Source of the DNA: a virus
Length of the DNA stretch: 48,376 nt
IMG/VR virus record: IMGVR_UViG_3300017917_003681
Coordinates: 1-48,376 of that record
Direction: 5' to 3' (one strand)
The position numbers and the translations under genes were made by a program. Below the pieces are notes generated by a model. That model worked only from the letters and a program-made list of their open reading frames with translations. It was not told the origin of the DNA and did no database searches. Positions 16,492 through 41,483 of the stretch are shown here, piece by piece (within the stretch, counting starts at the first letter, position 1; each line of letters begins with the position of its first letter).

Positions 16492-17289
16492 TTAAATGTC
16501 TTTTCCTTGTGGTGGACTATAAGATCTAGCATCAGATAATATATCTAGTTCTTCAGTAAATCCAAAGTCATCACTTGGACTTGCATTAATTGGATCTGGA
16601 ACAACAGTGTATCTCATTTCGCGTTTTGCCGTATTTGTATCTGTGCTTGAATAATAATCAATTTGTACTTTTCTAATTAATCCATCCGAAGATTGTGCAA
16701 CAGGACCAAAAAGATAAGTTTTGGCAGTAAATTGTAAAGTATAAATTAATGCTCTGCGTGTAGAAAAATCTCCTTCATAATCATCTTTAAAAGAAATATT
16801 GTCTAAAACAAAAGGAATATCTCTTTTTTCATTTAAGTTGTCTAAAAGATTAATTGTTACTGTAAACTGGGGTTGGAAAAAAGGTAAAATTTGTTCAATG
16901 ATTTGTAGTGCATCATCATTTAATTTTGTAAGAATATTAAGTTCAAAACCAATATTATATGGAACCGGCATGTATATCTGCTTTAAATTTGATCCCTCTA
17001 CTGCTTTAAATGTTTGGGTAGCAGGTGTTTTTCTTGTCCCATCATATTGAATAGAATTAATTTCATAAGACATTCTTGGTAATGTAATTTGAATTGGCTT
17101 ATTCAAATTTGGTTGCTGTTCAATACGTGCTAAAAACTTTTGAACTGGACCATATGCAATAGGAACCTTAATTTCCGAAATAATATCATCAGTAGAATCT
17201 TGATGTTTAATGTAAATATTATTAAACAGTGTACCAAAAGCAGTAACTGTTTTTTTAATTATATGGTGATAGTAATAAGTTCCTAACAT
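16492..17289 (-). CDS. gp15: Tail sheath stabiliser / tail terminator gp15
   Basis: 265 aa; T4 gp15 is 272 aa. gp15 forms a hexamer capping the sheath and tube and joining tail to neck. The start MLGTYYYHHIIKKTVTAFGT and the central VPIAYGPVQKFLARIEQQP with LPRMSYEINSIQYDGTRK are strongly characteristic. The last ~40 residues are a Pro/Asp/Ser-rich tail. The ATG overlaps the gp14 stop as TAATG. It belongs to the 13-14-15 neck operon. Confidence 0.96.
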   Translation of the reverse strand: MLGTYYYHHIIKKTVTAFGTLFNNIYIKHQDSTDDIISEIKVPIAYGPVQKFLARIEQQPNLNKPIQITLPRMSYEINSIQYDGTRKTPATQTFKAVEGSNLKQIYMPVPYNIGFELNILTKLNDDALQIIEQILPFFQPQFTVTINLLDNLNEKRDIPFVLDNISFKDDYEGDFSTRRALIYTLQFTAKTYLFGPVAQSSDGLIRKVQIDYYSSTDTNTAKREMRYTVVPDPINASPSDDFGFTEELDILSDARSYSPPQGKDI

Positions 17290-18668
17290 TAGTAATTACC
17301 AAATGGATTTTCTTCAGAAAAATCTAAAATAAGATCAGCTTCTTCTTCTATTTCTTTATTTTCCTCATATTTATTATAAAGATCATCACTTTCATAATTT
17401 GAAACTGCATAAGTTGCTGATGAACCAACACCTATGATTAATTCACCGGGATAGAATTGACCATCTGTGATAGAAACCTGAAGAATATTTGTATCTTTGT
17501 CCCAATTTTTAACCCTAGCTCTTGTTTTTGATTTAGAACCAACTACAATTTCATTGAAACGATAAGTTCCTACTCCAGTTGTAATTGAAGGTAAACCTAT
17601 GGTAATTGTTGGTGCAACAGTATATCCTATTCCAGGATTTGTAATTAGTATTTGTGATATTGATCCATTTGCCACAGTAGCAATACCAGTTGCAGTAACT
17701 CCCCAACCAACTGATGGTCCAGTAAATGTTACTGTAGGTGCAGTTGCATAACCACTTCCGGAATTATCTAATATAATTTCTTGTATACCAAAATATGTTT
17801 TTTCAATTTCACAAGTAGCTGCTGCCCCAGCGCCCCCTCCACCACTAAATGCAATACTTGGGGCAACAGTATATCCAAATCCAGTATTTGTAAAGTACAG
17901 TGACTTTATGGAGTTTGTGCCTCGGACACTAGTTGTAATTGCAACTGCTGATGCATTATATCCACCAGATGGTGCAGTACCAATTGAAACAACTGGTGCT
18001 GTTTTATAGTCATAACCATCATTTATGAGATACACATTTTTAATATATCCAGAAGTAAGACTTGTACGTGCTTCTGCTCTTACACCAGAGGAAATAAGTT
18101 GAACGGTCGCAATATATCCTTGATCTTGTATTGTCTGATCAACCTCATCAATTGAAGTATCAATAACTTCATCCTCATATTCAAAGAGTTCACATTTTAA
18201 TTCATAAACATAAAGTTTTCCTAATTGGTAGAAAGGTTGTTCGTGCTCTACAAATTTAACTTCAAATAATCTTTGCCCTAAAGGAAAATAAACAATATCT
18301 CCTTCTCTTGGGCGAGTTGATAATTCTATTTCTTCAGGATCCATTGTAGATAAAAATGGAGCAATAAAATCTTCAAATCTTTCTTTAGAAATAATGAGAC
18401 TTAAATCATCCCTCAAACTTACTCCAAATTTTGTTAGAATATCTCCCGAACCACTATATCCTTCATAATTATTGACATATGCTTCTAATGCAAAATTATC
18501 ATCAAATTTTGAAGATGATATTTCCTTTAATATGGTTTCTTTTCTAACAAATTTTCTTGGAATATAAATTACTTCCACACCAAAAATTCTCAGGTGCTCA
18601 TTAATTAACTCCTGAATGAGTCTCTGTTCGCTTGGGGATCCTTGTAAAAAATACTGATTAAGAGCCAT
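17289..18668 (-). CDS. gp14: Neck protein gp14 with inserted G-x-G-Y repeats
   Basis: 459 aa, about 200 longer than T4 gp14 (256 aa). The neck fold is split: residues 1-190 (QGSPSEQRLIQELINEHLRI, FGVEVIYIPRKF, ELSTRPREGDIVYFPLGQRL) and the C-terminal ~80 (EEADLILDFSEENPFGNY) match gp14. In between lie four copies of a ~35-45-residue module centred on G-x-G-Y-x-x-A-P: NDGYDYKTAPVVSIG (~213), NTGFGYTVAPSIAFSG (~258), NSGSGYATAPTVTFTG (~300) and NPGIGYTVAPTITIG (~344). gp14 with gp13 closes the filled head and joins the tail; the repeats may project from the neck. The ATG overlaps the gp13 stop by one base. Confidence 0.93.
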   Translation of the reverse strand: MALNQYFLQGSPSEQRLIQELINEHLRIFGVEVIYIPRKFVRKETILKEISSSKFDDNFALEAYVNNYEGYSGSGDILTKFGVSLRDDLSLIISKERFEDFIAPFLSTMDPEEIELSTRPREGDIVYFPLGQRLFEVKFVEHEQPFYQLGKLYVYELKCELFEYEDEVIDTSIDEVDQTIQDQGYIATVQLISSGVRAEARTSLTSGYIKNVYLINDGYDYKTAPVVSIGTAPSGGYNASAVAITTSVRGTNSIKSLYFTNTGFGYTVAPSIAFSGGGGAGAAATCEIEKTYFGIQEIILDNSGSGYATAPTVTFTGPSVGWGVTATGIATVANGSISQILITNPGIGYTVAPTITIGLPSITTGVGTYRFNEIVVGSKSKTRARVKNWDKDTNILQVSITDGQFYPGELIIGVGSSATYAVSNYESDDLYNKYEENKEIEEEADLILDFSEENPFGNY

Positions 18669-19507
18669 TATCCAATAAAATCGTATGGTGGAAGTTCGTA
18701 ATCCATTGACATCCTTTCTCTTATTGCTTCTATTTCTCTTTCTGCATCATCATAAATTTCTCTTCCATTCAATTCAATTCCACCTGGAAGTTTTACTCCT
18801 CTAAATTTAATTAAGTTTTGCCCCCATTGCCTTTTAATAAGAGCAGTCAAATATCTCTTCAAAAAACTGTCATTATAAACATTAGTAAAATCGTTAGGAT
18901 CAAGAATTCTATAACAATCAATAATTAAAAATGAATCTGGTTTTTGTTGCAACCAATCAATGTCAAGATACATTCTATTTTGTCGTTTATTAAATCTGAT
19001 TTGTTTTTCAGTTTTTAATAAAAAGTCAATATCTTCTAAGTATGTCTTAACCATTGCATATTGTAATAATTCAACAGAATTGAAATAATATAAATCATTT
19101 AAAAATAGTTGATATTTAATACTAAACATACCTCCAGAAATATCACTGGTATCAAATTTAAAAACTTTTTCAATACCAATTACAGAATCTGGAATTTGAA
19201 TATAATTTGAAGTTTCATAAAAATTAAAGGTAGTTTGAATCCCAGAAGAACTTGGTCTTCCAGTTGTAGTTACGATTCCTGGACCTACAGTTCCCTTTGC
19301 TCTACCTCTATCAATATCTTCCTGACTAATTCTATATTTTAAATACATTCTTTCGACACCATCAAAGTGTCTTTCATAAAAATACTGAAGTGCATCATCA
19401 ACAAGATCATCTATTTGATCATCATCTACGTTAATTTCTAATACAGGATATCCCAGTCTTCTTAGACAATAATCAATAAGTTCTTGTCTACTTGCAGGTT
19501 TTGCCAT
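18668..19507 (-). CDS. gp13: Neck protein gp13
   Basis: 279 aa; T4 gp13 is 309 aa. It is a head-completion protein binding below the portal. The N-terminus ASRQELIDYCLRRLGYPVLE followed by NVDDDQIDDLVDDALQYF is the diagnostic start of the family. Near the C-terminus DFTNVYNDSFLKRYLTALIK and NGREIYDDAEREIEAIRERM also match. It is coupled to the gene before (TAATG with the 132-aa ORF) and after (gp14). Confidence 0.96.
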   Translation of the reverse strand: MAKPASRQELIDYCLRRLGYPVLEINVDDDQIDDLVDDALQYFYERHFDGVERMYLKYRISQEDIDRGRAKGTVGPGIVTTTGRPSSSGIQTTFNFYETSNYIQIPDSVIGIEKVFKFDTSDISGGMFSIKYQLFLNDLYYFNSVELLQYAMVKTYLEDIDFLLKTEKQIRFNKRQNRMYLDIDWLQQKPDSFLIIDCYRILDPNDFTNVYNDSFLKRYLTALIKRQWGQNLIKFRGVKLPGGIELNGREIYDDAEREIEAIRERMSMDYELPPYDFIG

Positions 19508-20246: not shown

Positions 20247-20273
20247 TTACATCAGGTATATCTATCTATCCTA

Positions 20274-20459: not shown

Positions 20460-20655
20460 TTTTATTCACTAATTGCTTGAGTAAAGATTTAATTTCTTTA
20501 ATTTCATTTTTCATTTCTTCAATTTCTGCTTTTTCCTGATCTTTTTTGGAAATAGCATTCACATAATTTTTATAATCTTCGACATCACAGTTAATAATAG
20601 CACCCGTATATGCATCTCTATAAAGATTTGGATGTCCTTCTACTGGAATTCTCAT
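20446..20655 (-). CDS. Small protein with C-terminal coiled coil, 69 aa
   Basis: 69 aa. An N-terminal motif (MRIPVEGHPNLYRDAYTGAI, then INCDVEDYKNYVNA) precedes a charged coiled coil (EKAEIEEMKNEIKEIKSLLK) of about 30 residues. The V-E-G-H-P-N-L-Y-R-D start recurs in phage proteins downstream of baseplate genes (from memory). It overlaps the end of the 2398-aa gene (ATGA type, 4 nt) and the 60-aa gene. Function unknown. Confidence 0.72.
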   Translation of the reverse strand: MRIPVEGHPNLYRDAYTGAIINCDVEDYKNYVNAISKKDQEKAEIEEMKNEIKEIKSLLKQLVNKNETI

Positions 20656-23600
20656 CTAATTGCAATTGTTCTAATTGAATTTAATCTTGGAGCAAGAGCT
20701 TGATTAGTTCCTTCAAAAACAATTTTTATTATATAACCAGTAAATAAATCAAGATTATCTGCAGTATAAACATATTCAAGAAATTCATCAAGATTGCTTC
20801 CTCTTACATATCTATCTGGTAATCCACTATTATTGGTAGGATTAATTATAGTATCTCCAAATCCACTACCTGTAGTGTCTCTGAGATTGTCATAACCTGG
20901 GAATAGTTCAAATGCTTGAATAATTCCGTTGGCATTTGGTCTAATTAAACTGTAAAGAACTCTAAAATCTGCAGATACATCTCGGTATGCACTTAGATAG
21001 ACCTTTAATCCTCTTGCTGGTTGATCTAAGAAAACTGGAGTAGAAACATAGATAGCAGCACTTGGATCATAGATTAAGGAGTTTACGCGAGGATCTAGAG
21101 CAAAATTTTGAATTGGATTGTTAATGCGATTACTGCGGAATTCTGTAAATGCCTCATTAAGATATATCATAGGAGACAGATTTTTATCTGTCGTTGATAA
21201 TACAATATTTGTAGTAAAGGACTTACTTCTTGTAAATACCAAAGGAGAAAGATAATTTATTTCATTAACTCTTGATGCAACAATTCTTGTTGTTGTGAGT
21301 CTATTGAGAGCATTCAGTTGTACATTTTGGAATCCTTGATCCACAAATGAGGATTCATTTCCTCCCATGCTAGTTCCACTGATAGTTCTAATTGATGCAC
21401 TAACTGAGGTTTTGTCACCTGGAGTGATTACATTATAATTTGGTATTAGAGCATCAAATTGAATATTTTCAGTAGCGTAAATATTTTCCCCACCAAGATT
21501 TGCTTGAGATGCAAAAGCTAATGTTGGGAATCCATTATCGGCACTTCTATCAGTATTTCCTCCTGCAGTACCAACACCAATTTGAACAAAATATCCATCA
21601 CTAGTTGGATAAAGACTGTTAATTCCAAAAGTTGTATTAATTCTTCTTAATGAAACACCATTAAGTTCATATTTGTAAAGTTGAGAAGAAACATTATGTG
21701 GTTGTGGAATAGTTCCATCAATTCCACGAACTAATCCACCAATAGATCCATTACCAATTGAAGTATACTGAATAATTTCATTATCAACGATTACATAACC
21801 AGGATTACTGGATCCAATCGATACTCCTTCATATGTTGTAAAGTTTGATGTATCTGCTGTAGCAACATTAATTGAAGTATCAGTTAGTGAAATACTGGTA
21901 GATGTGAGAACTGGTGGTACGTTTGATTGTGCTCCAGTTATGGTAACATAGTTTGAAGTTGAATTCATGCCATGATCAAAATGATCAACTCCCATAATGT
22001 ATCCAGAATTTTGACCACCAACCGCAGCAGAGGTTCTAATTGTAGTTCCTGCTAAAGATACTATATTACCACTATTATCATAATAAGTTAATGTTCCACC
22101 AACGGTAAATGAATTACCTTGTACATTAGATAGGTATAAAGTATCAAGACCATTAATTGAAGTTATGGTTAATTGTGCATTTGCACCCACACCAGACACA
22201 GTAGATGTGACAATACCAACGACATCACCTACAGCATAACCATTTCCAGCAGTAACAATACTTGCACCAGTAATAACTGATTGAGTAGCAGTTAAGCTGA
22301 GTATAAGACCAGAACCACTTCCAGTAATTGCAAAAGTTGATGCATTAGATAAAGTTCCAGTATAACCAAATCCACCAGTAGTAATACCTACAGATCCAGT
22401 TGGACCACCTTGGCCAACAATATAACCATAATTATAAGGTTTGCCGTTATCACTTACTTTTCTACCCGTAGTTAAAATACCAATTACTCCACCAACAGTA
22501 GTGGTTACAATTCCAACATTTAATCTTCTTGGGAATGTTGTAATCGCATTGTTTCTCAGTTTAATAACATAACTATTACTTTGGTCTAGAGTTGGATTAT
22601 AGAATGTTGCGGTTCCAGTTGTTGATGTAAACTCAGCTTTGTAAAGTTTGAACATCATATCTTCATACTGGTTTGCTGTCCAAATTGTACCGTTTTGTGA
22701 CTTAAAGAGACTTCCTAGAGCAAACTGCCTTGAATAGATTACCCCTTCAGCATTTGGTAAATTTGCAGTGTTAACGGTCGTTTTACCCATTTCTGCAACC
22801 CAAACTTGATATTCATCACTATAAGGAGAGAGTAAAACAATTGCATATTCTCTTCCAGACGCAAGATAGATAGGATATGGGAATTTAATATTTGTTGCAA
22901 CAGATGCATTTGTTGAGGTTTTAACCTCATCCGGTGTAATTGTTACCGATTCACCAACAACCTCACTAGTTGGAGTTCCTAAAACTACTGTTCTAATTTC
23001 AACAGTTAATGGTGCATTTTCTGGGTCTTTTGTTGCAAAGAAAATATCTACTGAAGTAATGAAAACACCATTATCATCTTCTGTTGGAGAATCTGCAGTA
23101 CCATCTGATATATTTCTACCAACACTAAACGATTGTGCAAGAGGATCCAAGTAATATTCTGTTCTGGTAATTGTGGTTACCGTTTGCATTACATTTTGGA
23201 CACCCTCAGAGTTGTATATTGTCTGTGCACTATTCTGAAGTAAATCTCCTGGTAATGGTGGAGTATCAGTAGGACTTGAAGTAAGTTTGTAAGTTTTGGA
23301 TCCTGTTTGAATTCTTACAGCGGGTGGTGGATTTGATAGAGGATCTCTTAAGAAGAATGTTCCTATTAAATCACCATATTCATCAGAAACTAATCTTAAA
23401 TCTTTAACATATGCAGTAGCTCCACTGGATTGTCCAGTAAGAACCATTCCTTTTACTACATAACCAGAATATAATCCTTGTGCCTCTGCGGCAAGAGACC
23501 CAGTATCAATGTTTACAATTTTACTTGAAGCACTATATGAAGATGGTAAAGTTTCACTCTTTACATATGGATTTTTATTGTATGTTTTTGTTGGTGCATT

Positions 23601-26600
23601 AAATGGTCCAGTTTTATGATTTGGAGCAGCAACTCTAAATTTAATTAGTTGAACACCATTATATGTTCCTACTACAGTTTCACCAACAGTAAATGACACC
23701 GATGAACCATAATTTGCAAGTGTAGAATCTGTAGCGATTTCTAAAAGTTTAGGTACAAAATCTACTCCACTATTTCCATCAAGGAATTGATAGTACCTCA
23801 CAAAAGGTCTCATATTTCTTGCAAAAAATTCAGTGTTACGAGATCTCATATAGAGTTCTCTATTACTTGACACTAAAACATTTTGAGTAGAAATGTCTGT
23901 TTCCCAACGTAAAGTGACCCTTCTACCAATAGCAAAAAGCCAAATATGTCTCTCTTGTTCAATTATTCTACCTTGAGTTTGGATTGTTCTTACCCAATAA
24001 TCCTTTTCTGGATTTAATTTAACAGTTCCTGTATACTGTACAACATTAAATGGGTTTACATTTTCAACCTTAGTTGCTAAAGGTTGTTTAATCCACTCTA
24101 CTTCTTTATATTTTAAAAGAACTGTATTTTTCCTTTTAACTAGATTTGGATCTAATAAATCAAAATCTGCAGTTAAATCTAAATTTTGATCTGCAACTGT
24201 TAGGGCAGGTGCAATTTGACTCTGAAGTGTATTTCTAGATACAATAGGTCTTAACTCTTTTGCATCAGTATCAACTTCTACAGAAGAGTAGGTAGAATCA
24301 ACAAATGTAGAAGAGGAAAAATCATCAACAAAAAATCCACTTTTGAATCTATCTAATCCTTGAGCATCTCTAATTTGTAAACTCTTCGTATTAACCTCAA
24401 GCAGTGAGAGAGTAGTAACAGTTTCTAAATTAGAAACTCTCTTATCAATTGTACCAATGTCTCTCATTGTATATCTTCTATTATCAGTTAGAGCAATAGA
24501 AGTTGTTTTTGGTTCATAAAGATATGGAGGTAATGAAATTGTTGCAATTTCCATTACATCATCACTAAATTCTGGTGGTCTTGGATTATCCGCAGATGTT
24601 CCTCGAACTAATAAAAATTGTCCCCTTTTATTTAAATAAAGTTTATCAATTCTTCCCAGATAGTAACTATATCCAATAAGAGACCCCTCATTTGGAGTTA
24701 CAATAGTTCTCAAACTTGTACCAAAACTTCTTGATGAAAAATCAAATGGTGAAGACGAGTTTCCAGAAAATGCTGATACATAAGGTCTAAAATCTAAAGT
24801 ATCTGAAGCTCTTATTTGAGAAGAACCAATGTTTGGAATATCATAATTATATCTTGCCGCATCGTAACTCAGTACAGTGAAAACATCTCCAGTATCACTA
24901 GAAGGCACACTATAATAATCATAAACTATTGTTAAACTTCTAGAAGGTTCAGTTATTGTTTTATTTCTTACTATTCTTGAATAATCATAATATTGATCTC
25001 TTTGTCCTTTATCTAAGAAATAATTATTTGTAATATCTTTGAATCTACCTAAATTAATTCCCAATAAAGTCCCAGAAAGATTGGATTCTACAAAATTAAT
25101 TGTTTCCGCTTGAACAAATCTATTTGCATTTAAATAAACAATTCCAATAGTATTAGAAGCTGGTTTGGTTACAATTCTTGCAACTGTTCCACTTGTTTGC
25201 CCAATAATATTCTCACCAATAATTGATGCTCCTGTTACATTTAATAGAGGACTAAAAAGAAGACTATCTAAAACAGGAAGTCCAGAATCTAAAGATTCAT
25301 AAACTGCAAGAAGATTAGCAACATCTGGATAATTTAAAGAAATTTCTTCATCTTGCACTCTTAATCCATAATATTGATTAAAGTTTAAACCATCACCAAC
25401 AGATGTATTGATTCCGGCTCCAGGTCCAGATTGTGGATATTTTGAAAATGTAACATTTAAAACTGTACTTCTATTGTAAGTTTTAACTTTACTTTGAATT
25501 CCATTCTTTAGTAAAGTTGCATTAATAGAAGTAATAGTCTTACTTGGGGTAAGACCACTAATCGTAACATTATTACCACTGAAAGAAAACTTATCGGGAG
25601 TTAATGTGTCTACAGTTCCATCAGAATAGAATATAGAATATCTTTGATTATTAAATGGTAAGAAAAATGCACTTGAAATGCCAGTTACATTTGCTAAATT
25701 AAATGTAATACTTCCAGTTCCAGTGCTTGTTATTGATGTAATTTGCGTCGTAAAAGTTAAAGTAGATCCACCAAGATTTACTGAAGATATATTTTCATTT
25801 GGTAGAGGTGTATAAAGATTTCCATTATTCTGATTTCTTATAATAGGAGCACCAACAGAAACTGGAGTTTGAATAGTTGAACCAGGAAGAGTCCCGTCAC
25901 AAACTCCAGATACACTTGTTATTGATGCTAATTGGATTGATGTTCCTGCAGTGCTTATTCCAATTACTCTATTATATGTTTCTAAGGTTTGACCTGATTT
26001 TTGATATCTAATAATTGTATTTGTAGTAATACCACTGAAAAACTTTCCAGGACAAGTTAAGTTTCCAGAACTATCGATATAAACTTGATCTGATGAATTA
26101 AGATTTGGGAATGGAACTTTTTCCAAACTTACATCTGCAGCAAAATTCAATGAAAAACCAGATACTGATGTTGATTGAAATACTGACTTAATGTCTTTTG
26201 TACTATAAGATTTTACTGCAACTACTGTTCTGGTTGGTATAGAAGGTAATCCATTAATTAAAATTTGCTCACCAACTTGGAAATTGCCAGATACTTGTCT
26301 TAAAGTAATCAAATTTTGTGTTACAGTACCAAAAACAAAATTAGATGTTCCCGCAATAACAGCATATCCACTAGCTCCACTACTCAAGCCTCTTACATAA
26401 GAAGAAATTGGTAAATCAGTAGCATTTAATCCTAAATTAATTTGTAACTGTGTATAAGTTTGTACATCATAAAGATATAATGCATATTGAGTTGAACTAC
26501 TAATTCCAGAACTATAAGAAGGGTCTAAAAGATTCATTGAATAAACCCTTGCATCACCAATTTTATATCCAATAGGCGCCGTTGATGTTTTTCTTTGGTC

Positions 26601-27848: not shown

Positions 27849-27851
27849 TTT

Positions 27852-29424: not shown

Positions 29425-29441
29425 TTGAGTTAATTAAGATC

Positions 29442-32400
29442 CTACAAAGATTTTTTCAAAGCTCCTAAGAATCTTAAACCATAACCTCGTCTTTGGATTG
29501 TTGGGAAAGTAGTTAATCCAGAATTAACAGTATAACCACTTACAGCAATAGATACTGGAGAGGTTGATCTGGAAAATCCTCTCAATACACCCCATGAGAA
29601 TCTACCAAGATTATTTCCTGTTGTTGCTATTCCTACAACAGAAGTTCTCGAATCAATATTACATACAATTTCTGCATTAACATTTGTAGTACCTTGATAT
29701 GCAAATGAGTGAATATTGTAAATATTATTTAAGAATGATGTACCTATACCGACAATAGTAGAGTTACTACTATTAATTGAAGTTACACCATTACCAACAA
29801 TAGTATCAGAAATATAAATTGGGAATCCAGTTGCTAAACCAGATGGGAAAGGTGTATTTGCAGATGTCTTCAAATAGAATCTTAAAGCCAAAGGATTTCC
29901 AAGAGTTCCAGAAGTTGTTCCTATTCCAGTAATAATTCCAGAAAATCCTTGTAAACTTGTAACTCCTTTAATATTTTCATAAGATGCTGCAGGAGGAGCA
30001 GTAAAAACAACTGGAGGATTAGTTGAACTATAACCAAGACCTGGATTGGTAATTGTTATAGATCCATTCAAAGATCCATTTGTAATTCCTGCAGTTGCTG
30101 TTGCAGTTGTACCAATTCCAGTTCCTATAGTTATAGGGGAACCAATAATAAGATTCAAACTTGAACCAGTATATCCAGAACCAACACTATTAATTGTTAA
30201 TGAAGATATTGATCCAGTATCTGGGTTAACAGTAGCAGTTAAAGCGGCAGAAACAGGATCTGCTATTCCAGATACAATTAATCCATCAAAATTAGTAATA
30301 GGAATTAAGGTGGAATTATATTCATAGTTGAAGAAATTAGCATCATCAACATATACTACTGTATCAGAAGATGATAAATCTCTAATAATTTTTGCTGTCG
30401 GATATACTTCAGATTCAATAGAATCTCTAGTTTTATAAAAAATTTGACCATTAATTTGTTGATCAACTTTTTGTTTAGTCCAACTTATTGGTTTATACAA
30501 CTTGGTATCAATTCCAGATTCAATATAAACATTTGTTTGTACTTTATCCGAAGCAGGAATATCAAAAACTACTCTAGAATTTTGACTTGTTGTAATTGCG
30601 GAGATTGCATCATTTTTAAATACTTGTATAATGTCTCCAGGTTTTACTGTATCTTGAACAGAAACTTGTTTACTGTCAACATTTCTCGTTCCTCTATAGA
30701 AGAAAATTGATATGTTATCTTGAGGTTGTGGTGCATTTGCAAATGTAAATGAAGAACCTCCATTAAATTCATAAGCAACACCTGGATCTTGAATTACACC
30801 ATTAATAAAAATAAGGAGAACCGCATTTAAATCAATTTTTGATGAATCTGGATTATTTTGGTCAACTTCAAAACTTAAAAGCTGTTGATTATAATAAAGT
30901 GGGAATCTTGTTCTTACACCATCTTGGTAAATTTTAACTGAATCAATGTAATCTAAATCCCCAAATTGCCATGATGAGAATGAATCTGTAAATGTATCAA
31001 GAACAGTTAATCTAAATTTAGATAATGGAGAAGCAAGTCTGGTATCAGTTACTAAACCAACTGGTTCTAAAATGTCACCTCTTTCAAAAGCATATCCAGG
31101 TCTTACAATTTTGAAAGATTCTACAGCAAAGTAAGTGGATCCAACACCAACTGCAGTTGTTGCAGCGGCAACAGAAACATCTAAAAGTAAACCTTTACCA
31201 GGAATACTAGTCGTTCCAGTCGAAAGTCGTGAAATAATATTGACTGGTAAGTTTGAATAACTTGGTGATGGAATTTGGAATCTAGCTTGAGGTGTATATC
31301 TATCCCCCTGTGCTAAAATATTAAAAATTAATGTACCACCAGCACCAACATTTGCAGTTATAAGTGCTGGAAGAGATCCTGGTTGTAAAGAATGGTAATC
31401 ATCCGAAATACCAATTCCAATTGATCCAGAGAAATTATATCCAGATCCCCAACTTCCACTAGTTCCAATTCCAATAGAAGTAATTCTACCAACACCATCT
31501 ACAGTTGCTGTTATTGCCGCTCCGACGAGTGGGGCATAACCAATACCATCAGTTGATCCTAAAGAAATAATAACACCACCTCTTGGCAATTGATTGGCGT
31601 TTACATCATAATCAGATTTAATTAATTGACCATTATCTGAAGTGATTCCAGTAAATACAACACTTGTGATACCAATATTTGTATTTTCTTGAATTGAGAA
31701 ATTATTGAGAGTATTATTAACTGTTGATGGTGTTTGGAATAAATCGTTAATGAATAGAATGCCATTTCCACCAATAGTTCCCAATCCTGTAGTATTAATA
31801 CCTTGGACTGTTAATCTGTATGTTTGTCCAATCCCAGTAAACTGATCAGAAATATTATCATATATTTGATTAGTTGAATAATCACTTCTCAAATATACTC
31901 TTCCATCAAAAGTAGATTTGGCAGGAACAAGATTACTCTTATCAGTTTTGCTTAATAGATTTCCTAATGGAGGGGAAGTGAAGTAAGCTTTATCTCTTTC
32001 AATATTAAAAGATCCTCTATAAATTCTTGCATTTACTCCATCGAGGTGAGATGTTGCAGATGAACCGACATATGCTCTCGAAACATTAACTACTGGAATA
32101 GTTCCTAGTCCTGTAATTGGACCAGTAGAATAACTACTAAATCCAACATTTATAATTCTCATGTATTCATTATCAATTTTTAATATATCATTTGGTTTGA
32201 TTGACGAAATACCGGTCAAACCAAAATAAGTAGTCGCAACACTTATAGATCCACCATTACTATTAAGATCAAAATTAATTGGAGTAAATGCAATTGGATA
32301 CTGAACTACTCCATCAATGGAAATTATGGTTCTTTCCAACTTCTTATTCATTGTCAACTTATGAGCATTTCCAGACCCATAAGAGGTAAATGTAACATAA

Positions 32401-35400
32401 ATGCCTGCTAATGCATAATCTTTTCTTGTAGATAATCTAAAAGTATCATTTGTAACTTTAATAGGATAAACTTTTGGTGGAAGTTTATCGGTTACAATTC
32501 CTGCAAAATTTGCTGTAGAACCAATTCCAATAGCAGTTGCACCAACACCTAAGAAAGTTGAAGTTGGGAGATAATTAATTTCTTCACCGGTAACAAAGAA
32601 GTGATCCTTAATTGTAAAGAGACCAGATGATGAATTTAAAACAGAACTATCTGTAGGATTAAATACCTTTTCAAAAATAGGAATATCTTTATATTTTAAA
32701 GTAAAGTCTGTTCTATTAATTCTAGATCCATTAACTCCGGAAAATTGTGATGGAGATATTGATTCTATTATTGAACCATAATTTAAATCTGGATAAATAT
32801 TTTCCCTATCAACATCAGTATAAAGAATTTCACTAAATGTTTGAATATTAATATTACTTCCAATAAATTCTGGATCTGGATAAAACTCTAAATTCGCAGT
32901 CGATCCATTTAAAGATCCACCAAATGTTCCAATTCCGGATACATTTTTAACTGACAGATATTCATAAGGTAAAACATAAGTATCAATATTATCATGTAAC
33001 ATCATGACTTGATGTAAAACAGAAGTTGATCCAACACTTACCTGAACTGAGGATTTAACGCATGAAATATCATCACTATTAAATGATAAAATTGTAGATG
33101 CTGCAGATACGATTGAATAATTTGATTCATACCTTGCAGATCTTTCTAATCCTTGTATTTGTCCAGTATTAATAAATCTATATGTTGAGATTCCAGAGAA
33201 TCCTGTTGTTGAACCATAACTTACTACTTTTGTTCTAACAGTATTTTGTTTACCACTATCATTTTGATAATTTAAATAAACATAATTTGAATCAGATGAT
33301 GCGGAGAAAGATCCTATATTTCCGAATGAAAAATTCCATCTATTTGTGTTTGAATTAAAATAATAATTTGCAATATAAGTATCAGATCCATCATATATTA
33401 AATAAATTTCAACATAATCCATTTCTGATGTAACATCATTTATGACTTGAGAAGCTGCATGAATGGTGACTGGAACAGTAGTAGCAATGGATACAACTGC
33501 TGTTGTAATACCAGAAGTAACTACTTTATTTGTTGCAAAAAGATTTACAAATCCAACTGATGTGCTACCAATACCAGAAAAAACAGATGAAAAATTATTT
33601 CTTAAAATTTTAATATCATAATCATAGTTGTAAGCATCTGTTGGATCAAATCTTAAATAATTATTTCCTAGATCATCTGTAAATGCATATAGATTTCCAA
33701 CTTTTGGTCCATTTGTTAATGTTGATTTTTCAAGATCTACAAAATTACCTTGACCGTAGATATTATTTAATGTAACTATTTCAGTAAATTGAAATTGTTT
33801 TTTAGTTGTATCAATAATCTGTACTAAAAATCTGTCATAAGTATCATTTGATAAAATTTCAGCAATATTATTTTGATCAGAAATTGCTAATCCTAAACTT
33901 GAGAATTGGGAACTTATATCATCAATTCTTAAAACCCTGTTTGTAGAACATTGAATAAAACTTTGTAATTTTTTATTCAATAATTTTACAAAATTAGATT
34001 TTCCATTTATTATGTTGTAGTCAACTACTAAATCAAAGTTATTAATTGTATCTACTCTATTTGAATTTTTAATGTCAATTAGTGCAAAAGCAGTTGTAAC
34101 TCCAGTTAAGGCAGTTTTATAAGAAGATGTAATTCCAGTATCTGCAAAATTCTTCAAACCACTTGTATGTAATAAATTATTAACGGGAGTTATTAAGTCT
34201 TTAAATTGGATAGGACTTTTAACTGTATAAGCCATATCCTGATAGTAATCATTATTTGCAATAACTTGAAAATCTTCTGAAATTTTTCCAGTGTTATCGG
34301 ACCATCCAAGTTCTTTACTTGCGGAATAATTTAAAGTGAATTTTCCTGAATTTGATTTAACATCATTTACTATAGCAGTAGATCCTGTTGTTTTACCAAA
34401 AATGAGATCACCAACTGATAGATCATATGTACCAATAACTTTAATAAAATTATTTTCAGAAATACTTACTGTTAGATTTCTTTCTATGAGAGAATTTTCA
34501 TTTTGTGGTTTAACAAGTAATTTTTCACCTACCAAGAATTTTGCTGGTTCTTGAGTAACTTTAAATTGTGGATAATTTGAATATTTTATAAGTGAAGCGA
34601 GTGAATCTTGCGCTGTTTTTGCAATTCCCGGATTTGATCCAATGTTTGAAATTGTATATTCTAATTGAGCTGGATTAGTATTTAAATATTTTGTAACTCT
34701 AAAGAATTGATAATTGTTATCTGCAGAATTATATCCTGTTCCACTACTATATTGTTGAATATTCTCAACAAATACTAAATCTCCTACTGTAAATGGAACA
34801 GTTGAAAATCCTAATATTGGAGTGGTTAAATAACAAGTTACAATTCCAGATCCAGAGGTTACAACTCTATCAATACTTACCCCATTTGAATTATTAATAG
34901 CAACTACCTTTGGAATGGTGTCTGGAATTCCAGTTGGTGGTACAACAATGGATACACTTTCTACTCCACTGGCATTTACAGTTGCTTTTAATAGACCACT
35001 ATTAATTTTTTGATTAGTGTCCGAATCTATTAAAATTAAGTCAGGTGCTACTGAATAATATTTTCCACTATTAACAACATCAACTTTTTTAATTATATTT
35101 GAAGATGATAATATAACAGATGGTGGAATGAATGCAGTTGGAGATAATGTGCTATCAGAAGGATAATCATATCCTTCATTTATAATTAATGCTTGATTAA
35201 TTCTTCCAATTTTATCGGATTCTGCTACGACATATGCTCCACTTCCTTTTTCAGAGATTACAGTATTAAAATTTGGAACTTTTTTATAATTTGTTCCACC
35301 AGAAAGTATCTTTAAAGAAGATATTGAACCAGAAGCGGTTTTTGATCTAGTTCTGTAATATAAATCATCACATTCTGAAGGAACATAAGAAAGTTTTTCT

Positions 35401-38400
35401 GGAATTGTTGGTAAAGAAATATTAAAAGTTGTGTTTGTACTTCCAACACCAGATATTGAGTATGTACCAGTATAAGAACTGTCTACAAACAAAATTTTAG
35501 AATAATTGGAAACGTCAGAGTCCGCTGTGCTAATAAAACCAGATTTTTCAAAATTATAGTATAAGTAAACTGGCATTCCAGATGAATATCTTAATTTAAC
35601 TTGAGCATTGGTTGATACTCCGATAGTACCTACACCAGAAACTGCAAAAATAGTAGTGTTTCCAATAGATACAAATTCATTTTTGAATGCATTATCATAA
35701 TAAAACTTAAGATTATAACCTCTTAAAGATGGATGACTTACATCAAAAACTAAATCATTATTTTTAATTACAGAAATTTGAGGATTAATTAATGATAATT
35801 GTTGTAATGTTCCTCCTTGATCCTGTATATCAATTATTGATGGTGGATTAGATTGAGTGTCAGTATAAGTTTGACACAATTGGAAAGAGTCATCATCTAT
35901 TTTAAAAACATAATAATCTCCAGTAGTAATACCTGTTGGAGCTGCAATTGTAGAAATACCTACATATGCAACCTTATCACCAGTTAAAAACCCATGAGAC
36001 TTAATAGTAATGGTATCTGAAAGCGTATTAATACCTGCACTTCCAAAAGTTAAAGGATTAATTAAGACCTTTTGTCTAGAAGAATCATATCTAATTTTTA
36101 CAGAGGTAGAAGTTCCAATACCAACAGAAAGATTTGGTGTAACAAAAAGATCGATACTATCACCATCAGTTAATCCATGTGTAGTGGCAGTAGAAACCAC
36201 TGCTTGAATTTTTTGTACTTTTCCTAAAGATTGTTTAAAGTTGGAAGTTAAAGAATAAAAATAACTATTAAAGGTTCCAGAAGTATTTGGAGAGAAAAAT
36301 ACTTCTGGAGAATTTAATTGAGTTCTAATTCCAATTGTATCTTTAGTTTTATTTGCAATGTAAACTGTTGTTGAAATTGAACCAGATGGAATAGTAAATA
36401 CCGATCCGCCAAAAGAAGTTGATACTGATAGTGGAGAATATGAATTATCAGGCAAACTAATTGTAACTTGTTGATTATCAACAAATGGATGATTTTCAAT
36501 ATAAATTGATCTTAAAGGAATTGATCTAGTTGTCGTTAATCCAGCAAATACAAATGTAGTATTTGAAGTTATACCAACAGTGGTTGTTACTCCAAATCCC
36601 ACAGTTTCCAAAGGATTGAAATATACAACGTCATTTAATTTTGATTCAAAATAATTAGTTTTTTTATTAATTACAAAAGAGTTTGGTGTAAATCCAGCAA
36701 ATGTTGTTGCAGAAAGTGCTGCTCCAGCATTAATTCTTTGAGTTCTAATAACTTTTTGTTCAGGAAATATATTTAAAACTCTGAATATATCAGTTCCTAC
36801 TCCAATTGAAATACTACTACCAATTGTAACTTTTGGTGGAAGACTTAAAAAGTAAATATCTGTTACTAGTCCAGCAGATGGAGCTGCACTTACAGTTTTA
36901 GCAATTGATGTTGAATAAGAACTAAATCCAATATTATAAAATCCATTAATGTTGCCAATATTAGTAGTTAATCCAGAAATTACAACATTGTCATTCTGAA
37001 TTAAATTATGTGCGGGAAGAATATTAACTCTAACTTGATTTTCATTTTCCCAAGTAACAATTGCATTATTATAATTTTGTATACTTGTGTTAATTCTAAA
37101 GATATCTTTTCCTTCAATTTTTGATACCTCTGCACTTAATCCACCACCACCAGTAAATGAATTATCAAAATCAACCAAATCTCCTATTTTATAATCCTGA
37201 CCAGCACTAATTATTCTGAGATTTTCAATCGATCCTTTAGTTACTGATTTTACAACACATTTTTGAGGTATTTTCTTTGCTGATTCAATAATAAAATCAT
37301 TTGAAGCATTAGAATCATTTAATTTATATGGAAAAGTATTTCTGATTAAATTTGAATTATTGAAATCATATTCTTGGGTTAAGATAAGATTATCTTGAAT
37401 AAACTTTGATCTAAATTTATTTCCAATAAAATAAGGGAACCGACTTATTAACTCGTTGCTTACTGTTGCACTAGTGGTAACTCCAGCAAAATATGCATAG
37501 ACACCACTGGGAAATTCTGGAGTTTTTGTAAATCTTCCATTAGATTCATCAAGATCTCCACTATTTCTAAAAATATAATCCTCAACAAAGAATCCAGCAT
37601 CAAATCCAGATGGTCTATCAATAATATTTGATGCATCTAGTTCATAACCAGAATTAATAATCTTTACAGAAGATCCAGTGTCTTTTGGATCTGAATACCC
37701 AAAAGGTCCATAAATTGGGTTTCCATCATAAGCCCATCCAATTATTGGAGAATGATTATTTTGATTGGTGTCATTAAAATTGGTTTTAAGTTTATCGAAA
37801 TAACCAGATACACTGTACTCTAAGTTTCTATTGTACTGCGATTTTATAATAACTTCATCACCATATTTAAAATTAGAGTTAACTGTTAATGATCTGACAG
37901 ATGCTTCAAAAACTGCATCAGATCCTGCAGGTGTAATTTTAAAACTAAGATTGGTAGCAGTATATCCAAAACCAGGATTAACTACTACTGCACTTACAAT
38001 TTTTCCATTTTTAATTACTGGTCTAACAATACAACCATCTCCAGTTCCTTGAACTTCAACATCTGGAACAGAATAATAGTTATAACCACCATAAGCAACA
38101 TTAACCGATTCTATTCTCCCATTAATTACAACTGGAGTAAATTTAGCATCAGATCCTTTTTTGATTTTAATTAGTGGTTTTTTCTCTAGATTTAGGATAT
38201 TTGATCCGTATCCAGTGCCATTTTCATACAAATATGCATCAATAATTTTTCCTCTTACAGATGCAGTTGCTGTTAGTGAAGTTGGTGTAGAAGATCCTAT
38301 TCCTACTGGAACAATGTTAGCCGTAACAGTAATTGGTGGATAACTAAAATATTGATATCCTGATCCTATTCCAGTAAAAAGTACATTATTTTTTCTAGAA

Positions 38401-41400
38401 TAGTTAGTTGCATCTGTTCCTCCTAATCCCGCATTGTATAATCTAAATGAATCATCATCTAATTTAGAAACATAGTAGTATACTGATGTTGATAGACCAG
38501 AAATTGGACTAATTTGGTAATTATAAACAACTAAATCTTTCTCTTTAAATCCATGATTTGTAAAATTAACAGTATGATTAAATGTGGAAATACCAGTGGG
38601 TTTTACAATTAATTTACGATTAGTATATCCACTTCCACCATTAATTACTTTAATTTCACTAATAGTATTTCTGATCACTCCAGATTTAAATTTATGAATG
38701 CCATTATTGTTGGCTACTGAAAAAGGAACAGTATTAATACCAGCGATGGCATTTGATTTTGAATTAAATAATTGAATAGTTTTATTATTTACTACTGAAA
38801 TATAATAAATTCCATTAGAAGCAAGATATACACCTTGATCAAAAGTATTTGAATAATTTGTTGCTATACCTATAGGATTATTTCCATTAGAATCATAAAT
38901 TACAGAGTCTCCTGTATTAAAATTATGATTAGTTAAGAATGTAATAGTATCATTATTAATATCTAAACCGCCAGAAGTACCACTAATTTGTCTAGCATCA
39001 AAAGATACTTCTCTTCTTCTTTTCTGAATAATAGGTTGTAAAAGAGCTCCTGTTCCATTACCACCAGTAACAGCAACAGAAACGACAGTATTCAAATCAA
39101 AGTCTTGTGGATCAACTAAAATATTTTTTACGGATCCTTCTAAAACTGGTTGAATTAATGCAGTAACTCCTGTTCCTGTAGTAACTTCTAGTACGGGAGG
39201 ATTAATAACATCATAGTTTTTGCCACCATTTAGAACCTTAACAGATGTTAATGGACCATAATAAACTTTGTCATCAGACTTATAATTTTGAATTTCTATA
39301 CCATTGATTAAAATACCAACAGTTCCAGATTTAGTTTCTTCTCCAGTGCTTTCTGTATTTTGATTCAGATTGAATTTTCTCAAAAGTTTTTGAGAAGAAA
39401 TATATTGAAATCTTTGGGAATTTAAAATAAAAGTTTGAGAACCTGTTTTGGCATCAAGAGATCTAAATTTTACATATTCTGAAGATCCTACTAAGGATCT
39501 TGATCTATAAAGTCTAATTTTGTTTGATGATATTACATCGACATAATAAATTTCTCCACTATCTAAAAGTGGTATTGTTTTTGATTCTGGAATATAAAAA
39601 ACTTCATCTCCACGAATAAATGGAACTGGATCTGGGAATGAAATTATTGAAAATGTTTGAGATTCATCTTCAAATCCTTGTAAATATCCTTTTCCTTGTT
39701 CACTTTGACTTTTTGAACCAGTGGCTTCTGGAATAACTGATTTAAAAAGATTTTTTTCTATTGTATATGATGGCAGACTTCCAGATGCTACATAAATTTG
39801 ATTTTGCTGATCATCGACATAAACATTTTGTATATCAGAAGTTAAAAGATTATTTCCAAATTCAATAGGTGCTCCACTACTTTTTACAGTGCTTACTTTT
39901 CTTCTCAAATCATATTCAAGATTTTGATTATAAACAAATCCATCATTATTTCCGATGATAACTTGATTATTTGCAGCATCTATACTTTGAATAAATGGTT
40001 CATTTAGGATAGAAGATGCTAGATTTTCAGTACCTCTAAATAAAATTTCTATTTTGTCCCCTTCTTTTAAACTTGATTTATCAATTTTACTAGAAAGAGT
40101 AAATGTTGAACCACTAATTTGACTAATTTTATATCTAGAACTAGTATTATAAATCCAAGCATTTGCAAAAATATTTTTATAATCTTTGTTAAGGTCTTGA
40201 TAATTAGTAACAATTTGACCTAAATTCTTAACAAAAATTTCTTCATTTTCACTAATAGAAATATTGTTTGTTTCTTGAACAAATCCAGATAAAACACCTG
40301 TAATTCTTAATTCTACTTTTCTTGTAAGATCACCATCTTCATAAGCATAAACAGTTTCATTAATACGAATATCATCAGCTGGAAGAATAGAACTTGTAAT
40401 TCCAGAACATCCAAAGAATTGATTAATACTTCTGTCAGAATAATTGATAATATTTTTGTTACAAATCAAAGTTCCCGACTGTGGGAAACCAATAGTAGAA
40501 TCTACAGTAACAACTGAGGATCCAACTGAAACCTTTTCTATGACTTTTGTTTTACCTGGAATTGTGAAAGTACCAGTAATTGCAGAACTTTCTTCATAAC
40601 CAACAAACAAAGAAAGTTTATAATATTGCTTATTATCTGCAGTAAAAATTTCAACCTGCGATACTGATGCTGTGGTTGCCGGATCAGTAGATTTTACAAT
40701 CGTTTGACCTACAATTTTAGAAGGATCACCAGATATTCTTTCTGCAACAACTTCTTCTCTTCTTAGGTAAGATGCCGCAGATGGTCTGATTAAAAGTTCA
40801 CCAAGATTTAATACAGTTGGACTAACACCATAAAGAATATTAAATAAAATTCTAAAAGATTCTTTAGTTCCTTTTGATTGATAAAATTCTTTTGCACTCT
40901 TTATGAAATTGGCAACATTTAATTGAGAAATAAAATCAACATTTTCTAATCCTGGAGCAAAAGAATACTTAGTTTTTTTATAAAATTCTTTTAAAAATAG
41001 TGCACTTAAGTTTGTAACTGCTGCACCAACAGCATGAGAACTTCTACTAGAAGTTGAAAAAACTAATTCTTCTGGATTGTTTGGACTGTGATAACTCGTG
41101 ATTCCGCTGAATCCACGAACACATCCTGTAAAAGTGCTTCCTGCAATTCCAGTATATGTAATTATTTCATTATCAATATTCAGCAATCCATATTTTTGTG
41201 GATATCCTTTAGTTGATTTAACAGTAATTTCTGTTGCAGTTGAAGAAATCCCAGAATAAAGTTTAGTGGTGTTATCAATTACATTAGAACTTAAAACATC
41301 AATTTTTAAATATTGATCTAAATTTTCAACAATATCTGTTGTACCACCAGGATATTCCTGCGAAGTATAATATTGTTTTAAAAATTCCGAAGCATTTGGA

Positions 41401-41483
41401 TTTTCGTCAATTATAAATTCCGGAAGTTGATTCTCAATTATCTGTTGTACTTTAATTCTAGTGTCAAACCCAGTCTGTATCAT
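29442..41483 (-). CDS. Giant modular baseplate protein in the gp7 position (4013 aa)
   Basis: The largest gene, about 12 kb, between gp6 and gp8 where T4 has gp7 (1032 aa). The N-terminus (MIQTGFDTRIKVQQIIENQL, ASEFLKQYYTSQEYPGGTTD) resembles cyanophage gp7-position proteins. About 190-250 (NFIKSAKEFYQSKGTKESFR, ILFNILYGVSP) is helical and probably anchors it. Then come many modules: at least a dozen G-x-G-Y segments, YYV...FRLY segments near 641, 884, 998, 1851 and 3001, and a YHYH-like motif YDGNPIYGPFGY near 1247. The C-terminal ~900 residues include FINGVIQDPGVAYEFNGG. No protease, lysin or membrane motif is visible. The gp7 role is inferred from synteny; the repeats suggest an extended, surface-exposed arm. 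Confidence 0.9.
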   Translation of the reverse strand: MIQTGFDTRIKVQQIIENQLPEFIIDENPNASEFLKQYYTSQEYPGGTTDIVENLDQYLKIDVLSSNVIDNTTKLYSGISSTATEITVKSTKGYPQKYGLLNIDNEIITYTGIAGSTFTGCVRGFSGITSYHSPNNPEELVFSTSSRSSHAVGAAVTNLSALFLKEFYKKTKYSFAPGLENVDFISQLNVANFIKSAKEFYQSKGTKESFRILFNILYGVSPTVLNLGELLIRPSAASYLRREEVVAERISGDPSKIVGQTIVKSTDPATTASVSQVEIFTADNKQYYKLSLFVGYEESSAITGTFTIPGKTKVIEKVSVGSSVVTVDSTIGFPQSGTLICNKNIINYSDRSINQFFGCSGITSSILPADDIRINETVYAYEDGDLTRKVELRITGVLSGFVQETNNISISENEEIFVKNLGQIVTNYQDLNKDYKNIFANAWIYNTSSRYKISQISGSTFTLSSKIDKSSLKEGDKIEILFRGTENLASSILNEPFIQSIDAANNQVIIGNNDGFVYNQNLEYDLRRKVSTVKSSGAPIEFGNNLLTSDIQNVYVDDQQNQIYVASGSLPSYTIEKNLFKSVIPEATGSKSQSEQGKGYLQGFEDESQTFSIISFPDPVPFIRGDEVFYIPESKTIPLLDSGEIYYVDVISSNKIRLYRSRSLVGSSEYVKFRSLDAKTGSQTFILNSQRFQYISSQKLLRKFNLNQNTESTGEETKSGTVGILINGIEIQNYKSDDKVYYGPLTSVKVLNGGKNYDVINPPVLEVTTGTGVTALIQPVLEGSVKNILVDPQDFDLNTVVSVAVTGGNGTGALLQPIIQKRRREVSFDARQISGTSGGLDINNDTITFLTNHNFNTGDSVIYDSNGNNPIGIATNYSNTFDQGVYLASNGIYYISVVNNKTIQLFNSKSNAIAGINTVPFSVANNNGIHKFKSGVIRNTISEIKVINGGSGYTNRKLIVKPTGISTFNHTVNFTNHGFKEKDLVVYNYQISPISGLSTSVYYYVSKLDDDSFRLYNAGLGGTDATNYSRKNNVLFTGIGSGYQYFSYPPITVTANIVPVGIGSSTPTSLTATASVRGKIIDAYLYENGTGYGSNILNLEKKPLIKIKKGSDAKFTPVVINGRIESVNVAYGGYNYYSVPDVEVQGTGDGCIVRPVIKNGKIVSAVVVNPGFGYTATNLSFKITPAGSDAVFEASVRSLTVNSNFKYGDEVIIKSQYNRNLEYSVSGYFDKLKTNFNDTNQNNHSPIIGWAYDGNPIYGPFGYSDPKDTGSSVKIINSGYELDASNIIDRPSGFDAGFFVEDYIFRNSGDLDESNGRFTKTPEFPSGVYAYFAGVTTSATVSNELISRFPYFIGNKFRSKFIQDNLILTQEYDFNNSNLIRNTFPYKLNDSNASNDFIIESAKKIPQKCVVKSVTKGSIENLRIISAGQDYKIGDLVDFDNSFTGGGGLSAEVSKIEGKDIFRINTSIQNYNNAIVTWENENQVRVNILPAHNLIQNDNVVISGLTTNIGNINGFYNIGFSSYSTSIAKTVSAAPSAGLVTDIYFLSLPPKVTIGSSISIGVGTDIFRVLNIFPEQKVIRTQRINAGAALSATTFAGFTPNSFVINKKTNYFESKLNDVVYFNPLETVGFGVTTTVGITSNTTFVFAGLTTTRSIPLRSIYIENHPFVDNQQVTISLPDNSYSPLSVSTSFGGSVFTIPSGSISTTVYIANKTKDTIGIRTQLNSPEVFFSPNTSGTFNSYFYSLTSNFKQSLGKVQKIQAVVSTATTHGLTDGDSIDLFVTPNLSVGIGTSTSVKIRYDSSRQKVLINPLTFGSAGINTLSDTITIKSHGFLTGDKVAYVGISTIAAPTGITTGDYYVFKIDDDSFQLCQTYTDTQSNPPSIIDIQDQGGTLQQLSLINPQISVIKNNDLVFDVSHPSLRGYNLKFYYDNAFKNEFVSIGNTTIFAVSGVGTIGVSTNAQVKLRYSSGMPVYLYYNFEKSGFISTADSDVSNYSKILFVDSSYTGTYSISGVGSTNTTFNISLPTIPEKLSYVPSECDDLYYRTRSKTASGSISSLKILSGGTNYKKVPNFNTVISEKGSGAYVVAESDKIGRINQALIINEGYDYPSDSTLSPTAFIPPSVILSSSNIIKKVDVVNSGKYYSVAPDLILIDSDTNQKINSGLLKATVNASGVESVSIVVPPTGIPDTIPKVVAINNSNGVSIDRVVTSGSGIVTCYLTTPILGFSTVPFTVGDLVFVENIQQYSSGTGYNSADNNYQFFRVTKYLNTNPAQLEYTISNIGSNPGIAKTAQDSLASLIKYSNYPQFKVTQEPAKFLVGEKLLVKPQNENSLIERNLTVSISENNFIKVIGTYDLSVGDLIFGKTTGSTAIVNDVKSNSGKFTLNYSASKELGWSDNTGKISEDFQVIANNDYYQDMAYTVKSPIQFKDLITPVNNLLHTSGLKNFADTGITSSYKTALTGVTTAFALIDIKNSNRVDTINNFDLVVDYNIINGKSNFVKLLNKKLQSFIQCSTNRVLRIDDISSQFSSLGLAISDQNNIAEILSNDTYDRFLVQIIDTTKKQFQFTEIVTLNNIYGQGNFVDLEKSTLTNGPKVGNLYAFTDDLGNNYLRFDPTDAYNYDYDIKILRNNFSSVFSGIGSTSVGFVNLFATNKVVTSGITTAVVSIATTVPVTIHAASQVINDVTSEMDYVEIYLIYDGSDTYIANYYFNSNTNRWNFSFGNIGSFSASSDSNYVYLNYQNDSGKQNTVRTKVVSYGSTTGFSGISTYRFINTGQIQGLERSARYESNYSIVSAASTILSFNSDDISCVKSSVQVSVGSTSVLHQVMMLHDNIDTYVLPYEYLSVKNVSGIGTFGGSLNGSTANLEFYPDPEFIGSNINIQTFSEILYTDVDRENIYPDLNYGSIIESISPSQFSGVNGSRINRTDFTLKYKDIPIFEKVFNPTDSSVLNSSSGLFTIKDHFFVTGEEINYLPTSTFLGVGATAIGIGSTANFAGIVTDKLPPKVYPIKVTNDTFRLSTRKDYALAGIYVTFTSYGSGNAHKLTMNKKLERTIISIDGVVQYPIAFTPINFDLNSNGGSISVATTYFGLTGISSIKPNDILKIDNEYMRIINVGFSSYSTGPITGLGTIPVVNVSRAYVGSSATSHLDGVNARIYRGSFNIERDKAYFTSPPLGNLLSKTDKSNLVPAKSTFDGRVYLRSDYSTNQIYDNISDQFTGIGQTYRLTVQGINTTGLGTIGGNGILFINDLFQTPSTVNNTLNNFSIQENTNIGITSVVFTGITSDNGQLIKSDYDVNANQLPRGGVIISLGSTDGIGYAPLVGAAITATVDGVGRITSIGIGTSGSWGSGYNFSGSIGIGISDDYHSLQPGSLPALITANVGAGGTLIFNILAQGDRYTPQARFQIPSPSYSNLPVNIISRLSTGTTSIPGKGLLLDVSVAAATTAVGVGSTYFAVESFKIVRPGYAFERGDILEPVGLVTDTRLASPLSKFRLTVLDTFTDSFSSWQFGDLDYIDSVKIYQDGVRTRFPLYYNQQLLSFEVDQNNPDSSKIDLNAVLLIFINGVIQDPGVAYEFNGGSSFTFANAPQPQDNISIFFYRGTRNVDSKQVSVQDTVKPGDIIQVFKNDAISAITTSQNSRVVFDIPASDKVQTNVYIESGIDTKLYKPISWTKQKVDQQINGQIFYKTRDSIESEVYPTAKIIRDLSSSDTVVYVDDANFFNYEYNSTLIPITNFDGLIVSGIADPVSAALTATVNPDTGSISSLTINSVGSGYTGSSLNLIIGSPITIGTGIGTTATATAGITNGSLNGSITITNPGLGYSSTNPPVVFTAPPAASYENIKGVTSLQGFSGIITGIGTTSGTLGNPLALRFYLKTSANTPFPSGLATGFPIYISDTIVGNGVTSINSSNSTIVGIGTSFLNNIYNIHSFAYQGTTNVNAEIVCNIDSRTSVVGIATTGNNLGRFSWGVLRGFSRSTSPVSIAVSGYTVNSGLTTFPTIQRRGYGLRFLGALKKSL

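Follow-up and report, generated by a model that had tools for sequence, protein, structure and literature searches.

The DNA analysed here, record IMGVR_UViG_3300017917_003681 of IMG/VR (48,376 bases; the window), is a virus record and represents a fragment of a T4-like cyanophage. A module of about 40 amino acids with a G-x-G-Y turn recurs in its neck protein gp14, in its baseplate proteins gp7 and gp8, and in a VrlC-like structural protein. Judged by profile comparison, the modules at these sites are homologous. We propose that a pair of modules acts as a pluggable surface or docking barrel on exposed parts of the tail, a reading to which we assign a probability of about 0.6. Cyanophage gp7, gp14 and gp8 exceed their T4 counterparts in size, with much of the extra sequence unexplained, and module pairs provide these proteins with a domain map.

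Module copies and their relationship

The proteins carrying the module are encoded at the following positions:

17289..18668, minus strand: gp14 (neck, head closure Hc2), 459 amino acids; residues 1-178 are the T4 gp14-like core
20652..27848, minus strand: VrlC-like structural protein, 2398 amino acids; phrog_358, Pfam DUF4815, syntenic with VrlC of S-SM2
27852..29399, minus strand: gp8, baseplate wedge, 515 amino acids; Pfam Phage-Gp8
29442..41483, minus strand: gp7-type giant baseplate wedge protein, 4013 amino acids; phrog_2885 (E = 0), syntenic with gp7 of P-SSM2 and S-SM2

Assignment of gp14 to the T4 gp14 (Hc2) family follows from a Pfam T4_neck-protein match on residues 12-182 (2.9e-29; 102.7 bits against a cut-off of 25) together with synteny with gp13 and gp15; the protein also maps to phrog_460, and a sequence search links it to structures of T4 gp14 (E about 1e-21). 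The predicted gp8 structure (AlphaFold2, AF2) superposes on T4 gp8 (1n7z) with Z 16.5 over 259 residues.

Module copies were found at these sites (protein residues in brackets):

17544..18068, minus strand: gp14 array of four modules, probably two barrels (201-375); AF2 predicted local distance difference test (pLDDT) near 90 for most of its length
17916..18047, minus strand: gp14 module 1 (208-251)
17790..17915, minus strand: gp14 module 2 (252-293)
17664..17789, minus strand: gp14 module 3 (294-335)
17544..17663, minus strand: gp14 module 4 (336-375)
22155..22397, minus strand: VrlC-like module pair (1818-1898); hhalign 93-96% to other sites
28503..28745, minus strand: gp8 module pair (219-299); kept in all 61 aligned gp8
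29991..30212, minus strand: gp7 module pair (3758-3831); 19.2 and 38.5 bits
31215..31583, minus strand: gp7, up to three degenerate modules (3301-3423); the last 9.8 bits, the rest by eye
34968..35327, minus strand: gp7, three tandem modules (2053-2172); 9.0 and 17.7 bits, the middle one by eye; A2 profile E 1.4e-6
37110..37232, minus strand: gp7, GxxYxxGD-variant module (1418-1458); the Pfam family Gp18_dom_I weakly matches its S-CAM9 counterpart
37890..38249, minus strand: gp7, three tandem modules (1079-1198); 15.7 bits (1123-1160) and 6.5 bits (1161-1198), the copy from 1079 by eye; A2 profile E 6.6e-7
38598..38666, minus strand: gp7, partial module (940-962); 11.4 bits
39135..39248, minus strand: gp7 module (746-783); 21.0 bits

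A previous sequence-only reading of the window had listed four copies in gp14, two in gp8, at least two in the 2398-residue protein and about a dozen in the 4013-residue protein. All of its sites were located, as were the strings it quoted (NTGFGYTVAPSIAF in gp14, SGGSGYTYG in gp8, NPGLGYSSTNPPVVF in gp7). Its counts agree with ours: four tandem modules at gp14 residues 208-375, two in gp8, two in the VrlC-like protein, and in gp7 8-9 by hidden Markov model (HMM) or about 14 once copies read by eye are added. Six of the 8-9 HMM copies in gp7 outscore every decoy, with an HMM trained partly on these proteins, and several single copies are weak when taken individually. The full motif occurs nine times in gp14 (overlapping starts of three copies), compared to 0.014 occurrences expected from shuffles. 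The second copy of the VrlC-like pair is of the GxGYxxGD variety, as in T4 gp18. The suggestion that such insertions make up the additional length relative to T4 largely holds for gp14, where modules account for about 170 of about 200 extra residues and the small barrel described below adds to this, but it covers only part of the excess in gp8 (about 80 of 181), the remainder being a second insertion.

On its own, an HMM built from the four window gp14 copies could not tell the gp7 and gp8 copies apart from shuffled sequences. A gp14-only HMM built from 334 module copies in 83 gp14 orthologues, by comparison, yielded 162 matches in gp7-class proteins, 19 in gp8 and 2 in VrlC-like proteins at 8 bits or more, with zero matches in shuffled or reversed decoys at 8 bits. 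In HHalign comparisons between families, the ten pairs of module regions all scored probabilities of 90-98%, whereas control pairs (other regions of the same proteins) reached at most 3.1%. Because the gp14-only HMM and the controlled HHalign comparisons link all sites, the modules are taken to be homologous. Convergence of low-complexity beta sequence with glycine turns could account for the weak scores of single gp7, gp8 and VrlC-like copies against the gp14 HMM, but in view of the HHalign contrast and of decoys never reaching 8 bits it is very improbable.

Pfam, NCBIfam and PDB sequence searches with the scanned proteins returned no named family for the module, and a literature search on GxGY with phage and repeat found no report. 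The module defined here is widespread and was matched by no Pfam or NCBIfam model in these proteins.

Fold, pairing and likeness to T4 gp18 domain I

Structure models of gp14 and gp8 were predicted with AF2 and compared by Foldseek and VIA-align. The gp14 model is confident only in the region of modules and carrier barrel, most of the core being poorly modelled; the gp8 model has a mean pLDDT of 80. In the gp14 model a long strand A, a short strand B and a long strand C repeat, with C and the next A forming a hairpin. The order of strands is identical at the gp14 and gp8 module sites of the predicted models, and unrelated folds at the sites were not seen. Together with the HMM links, this agreement bears out the proposal of the sequence-only reading that one homologous module is reused in different tail parts. 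We hypothesize that each module would contribute strand A (xIxxIxIxnxG), the G-x-G-Y turn, the short strand B (PxVxI) and a strand C hairpinning into the next A, and that two modules together may close one six-stranded beta-barrel.

In gp14 the module array is inserted in a loop of a small barrel (residues 183-200 and about 376-427), and gp8 has a barrel of the same fold:

17388..17543, minus strand: small beta-barrel of gp14, C-terminal part (376-427); VIA-align
18069-18122, minus strand: small barrel of gp14, first strand (183-200)
28062..28322, minus strand: small barrel of gp8 (360-446), fold as the gp14 carrier barrel

With Z values of up to 6.7, VIA-align aligned gp14 183..427 to JBD30 491-559 and to EF-Tu/eIF2gamma-type barrels. 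A Foldseek search of the PDB with the complete gp14 model returned nothing below an E of 0.001. The small barrels of gp14 (17388-17543) and gp8 (28062-28322) contain a fourth shared piece, GExIxGxxSGAxAxV, with lookalikes in gp7 (34326-34424) and the VrlC-like protein (23337-23459).

Folding apparently takes place in units of two modules. Of 186 unique gp14 inserts the majority carry four modules and others 6, 8 or 10; a clade whose array contains an inserted domain reaches 12 when one degenerate copy is counted. None of the curated arrays is odd (4/6/8/10/12), and the gp14 core tree requires at least 12 changes of copy-number class. The gp8 number is two in all 61 aligned sequences from three lineages, with G230, Y233, G269, G270 and Y273 invariant. 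Even gp14 arrays, the constant two of gp8 and single-pair inserts in other phages (see below) are most simply accounted for by two modules forming one barrel. The pair would then be a domain complete in itself, able to enter loops of phage structural proteins and to multiply in tandem two modules at a time. Several points speak against the pair rule: the 12-copy count depends on one degenerate copy read by eye, arrays of six modules with a gap depend on a by-eye reading of two variant modules, and the runs of three tandem modules in gp7, likewise by eye, are possible exceptions. Automatic gp14 counts of 3, 5, 9 and 11 were rejected as fragments of about 2.5-5 bits or as degenerate or interrupted arrays; these corrections were made by eye after the automatic counts were known. 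Interrupted arrays are those of L394, L400, L417 and L420, in which a separate domain weakly resembles laminin-G (E 0.11); for the L394 middle domain this identification was not adopted, the match being far below cut-off. In L394 (1501-4257) and L417 (1501-4236), gp14 reaches about 910-920 amino acids with an extra domain of about 250 residues inside the array.

In gp18, the sheath protein of T4, domain I is a six-stranded barrel inserted in domain II and protruding from the tail (PMC3004832). It takes no part in subunit contacts, binds the baseplate and retracted long tail fibres in T4, and its mutations G106S, S175F and A178V inhibit fibre retraction (PMC3004832). In the T4 sequence used (record L084), numbering after removal of the initiator methionine fits all three mutated letters, and G106 is the glycine of ISTPG-SNY, which is the motif glycine.

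The module pair and domain I have in common a length of about 90 residues and two G-x-x-Y turns, and the pair would probably also share the six-stranded barrel inside another domain and the place on an outward-facing tail part; domain I differs in its location in the sheath, its presence as one copy and an extra helix. VIA-align of the modelled gp8 pair (residues 222-299) with T4 gp18 99-188 displays Z 5.7, a root-mean-square deviation of 2.9 and 18% identity over 73 residues, and for this gp8 stretch Z ranges from 5.1 to 5.7 across the KP1 sheath and three entries of the T4 sheath. A blind search of Pfam Gp18_dom_I (PF22639) over eight complete non-T4 phage genomes gave weak best matches in six (E 0.002-0.08). 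Four of these matches fall on module sites: two in VrlC-like proteins, one in gp7 and one in an open reading frame of 754 amino acids. Module HMMs put their matches in T4-type sheaths at about residues 100-155.

A number of results weigh against a common origin of the two. The Z of 5.7 (gp8 pair against 3fo8) lies below 8, the aligner's level for trusting a lone match, and the gp14 model matched through its carrier barrel only, leaving gp18 unmatched, an absence that is uninformative. Gp18_dom_I did not reach its cut-off of 27 bits outside T4 (best 15.9) and had zero matches in the window. The hhalign probabilities to T4 domain I are weak (gp8 7%, VrlC 36%), and of four module HMMs only those of gp8 and VrlC scored above shuffled sheaths at the position mentioned, the other two being no better. 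Since the sequence support is weak but in register, we claim a likeness and regard homology of the module pair with gp18 domain I as likely rather than proved. The pair may accordingly be described as remotely related to domain I or, failing that, as its structural counterpart, which ties the cyanophage proteins to a solved T4 domain with genetics.

Proposed role and alternatives

The data show that the modules are homologous, which topology is predicted for them, that curated gp14 arrays are even in number and that pairs are inserted in other tail proteins; from this we infer that the gp14 barrels close, that gp18 domain I is a homologue and that the barrels serve in docking. The cyanophage barrels would reside on the baseplate (gp7, gp8, VrlC-like) and the neck (gp14), not on the sheath, and their likeliest role would be to serve fibres and other appendages as a docking or spacer platform at the surface. 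A common surface function of the modules, one of the options of the sequence-only reading, becomes plausible through the likeness to domain I. The finding of bacterial proteins L519, L520 and L521 (1800-2800 amino acids, apparently secreted, 19-27 module matches), reached by a chimeric tandem query, tells against this role, since a module with up to 27 matches in such giants is not dedicated to fibres.

At the neck, gp14 may possibly take over the part played in T4 by the fibritin whiskers and by gp13 through its fibritin-binding domain. Fibritin_C had no match in the seven other cyanophage genomes tested, and gp13 of the window (18668-19507) is without a stretch corresponding to the fibritin-binding domain III of T4 gp13, so that the neck may need other means of holding fibres. 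This yields a testable claim on the way in which fibres are held in cyanophages that have no recognisable fibritin. The most far-reaching version, in which a gp18 domain I-like barrel moved off the sheath, was amplified evenly on neck and baseplate, and became a new fibre-docking system in place of the fibritin collar, is speculative and in our estimation rather unlikely.

The modules could instead be passive filler, a stable and readily duplicated barrel acting as spacer or stiffener in large structural proteins, with no partner to bind. Variation of gp14 copy number from 4 to 12 among relatives that retain the core would agree with this, as would the presence of the module in unrelated proteins. 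However, conservation of the gp8 pair with its motif residues in 61 of 61 sequences, and the phenotype of the T4 domain I mutations (PMC3004832), are hard to reconcile with filler, which we consider the strongest of the competing explanations and still an improbable one.

Slightly less probable again are adhesion domains that bind receptors or glycans and anchor the virion on the surface of the cyanobacterium. Modules do occur in surface proteins of bacteria and phages, gp7 has a YHYH domain in addition, and the laminin-G-like domain interrupts gp14 arrays in the four records named above. However, carbohydrate-binding families were unmatched above cut-off (Pfam, NCBIfam), the conserved positions are turn glycines, the tyrosine and the proline, and the laminin-G resemblance is far too weak to count.

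Tail sheath and major tail proteins can bear additional domains, immunoglobulin-like (Ig-like) ones among them, which are thought to aid adhesion or stability (PMC9230969). Such domains resemble the module pair as optional surface domains inserted in tail proteins, but the module pair consists of two like halves. Ig-like families were unmatched by gp14, gp8, gp7 and the VrlC-like protein in Pfam, and by gp14, gp8 and the VrlC-like protein in NCBIfam.

Spread, history and neighbouring features

One module pair is inserted in the sheath protein of Escherichia phage Alux-21 and related ep3-type sheaths, and one in major tail proteins of P. putida prophages. These insertions match the same HMM (27-36 bits per copy) and lie in tail structural proteins as well, but they comprise a single pair in unrelated host proteins. 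Although ep3-type sheaths carry the module pair, the window sheath protein (8140-10287) is without a Gp18_dom_I match. Its 715 amino acids include other extra sequence between the N-terminal part and the core. In any one cyanophage genome the A2 profile finds at most 18 sites; Sinorhizobium phage phiM7 has two and T4 has none. Among predicted viral proteins, Foldseek matched many phages and Sylvanvirus; a plasmid search for the module gave no match. Exchange of domains among tail, neck and baseplate proteins is described by Smug et al. 2023 (PMC10684548), the parts of that work consulted reporting domain mosaicism and not the G-x-G-Y module.

By sequence comparison, the four gp14 module positions diverged before the sampled radiation; identity is 0.52-0.69 within position classes and 0.29-0.40 between them. 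Of the duplication and transfer suggested by the sequence-only reading, duplication inside gp14 stands, with 6-12 copies in relatives, two copies 74% identical in DNA in L082, and 41 nucleotides shared at 85% between window modules 2 and 4. Recent copying within the genome, from gp14 to gp7, gp8 and VrlC, would extend such local duplication to other genes, but it is most doubtful: similarity of gp14 to gp7 has a mean score of 48.9 in the same genome and 50.0 in another, the gp7 of the same genome ranks 5, 5, 1, 2, 5 and 3 of 6, and the position classes predate the sampled radiation. Because gp14 is no closer to its own gp7, and because the module also occurs in unrelated phages and bacteria, recent intragenomic transfer is unsupported.

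The minus strand of the window encodes gp6, gp7, gp8, the VrlC-like protein, gp13, gp14 and gp15, and, judged by gp14, the closest relative in culture is Synechococcus phage S-SRM01 (62.7%). An open reading frame of 690 amino acids (13965-16037) has DUF5661 and DUF6321 at its ends. The YHYH domain of gp7 (37467-37769; Pfam 7.2e-26) belongs to a type predicted to be a tail-associated metal-dependent hydrolase (PMC7824862). A second gp7 repeat, H-x-F-x-T-G-D-x-V-x-Y ... YYV-x-x-x-DDSF-x-L, displays about five copies by eye (38760-38954, 38430-38582, 35868-36020, 36963-37034 and 32541-32630), with DNA repeats of up to 84%. A third shared module, xITVxSTxGFPxxGxLxIDNEIITYT...GCxRG, was recognised by eye in gp7 (41100-41237 and 40398-40520) and in the VrlC-like protein (21711-21878).

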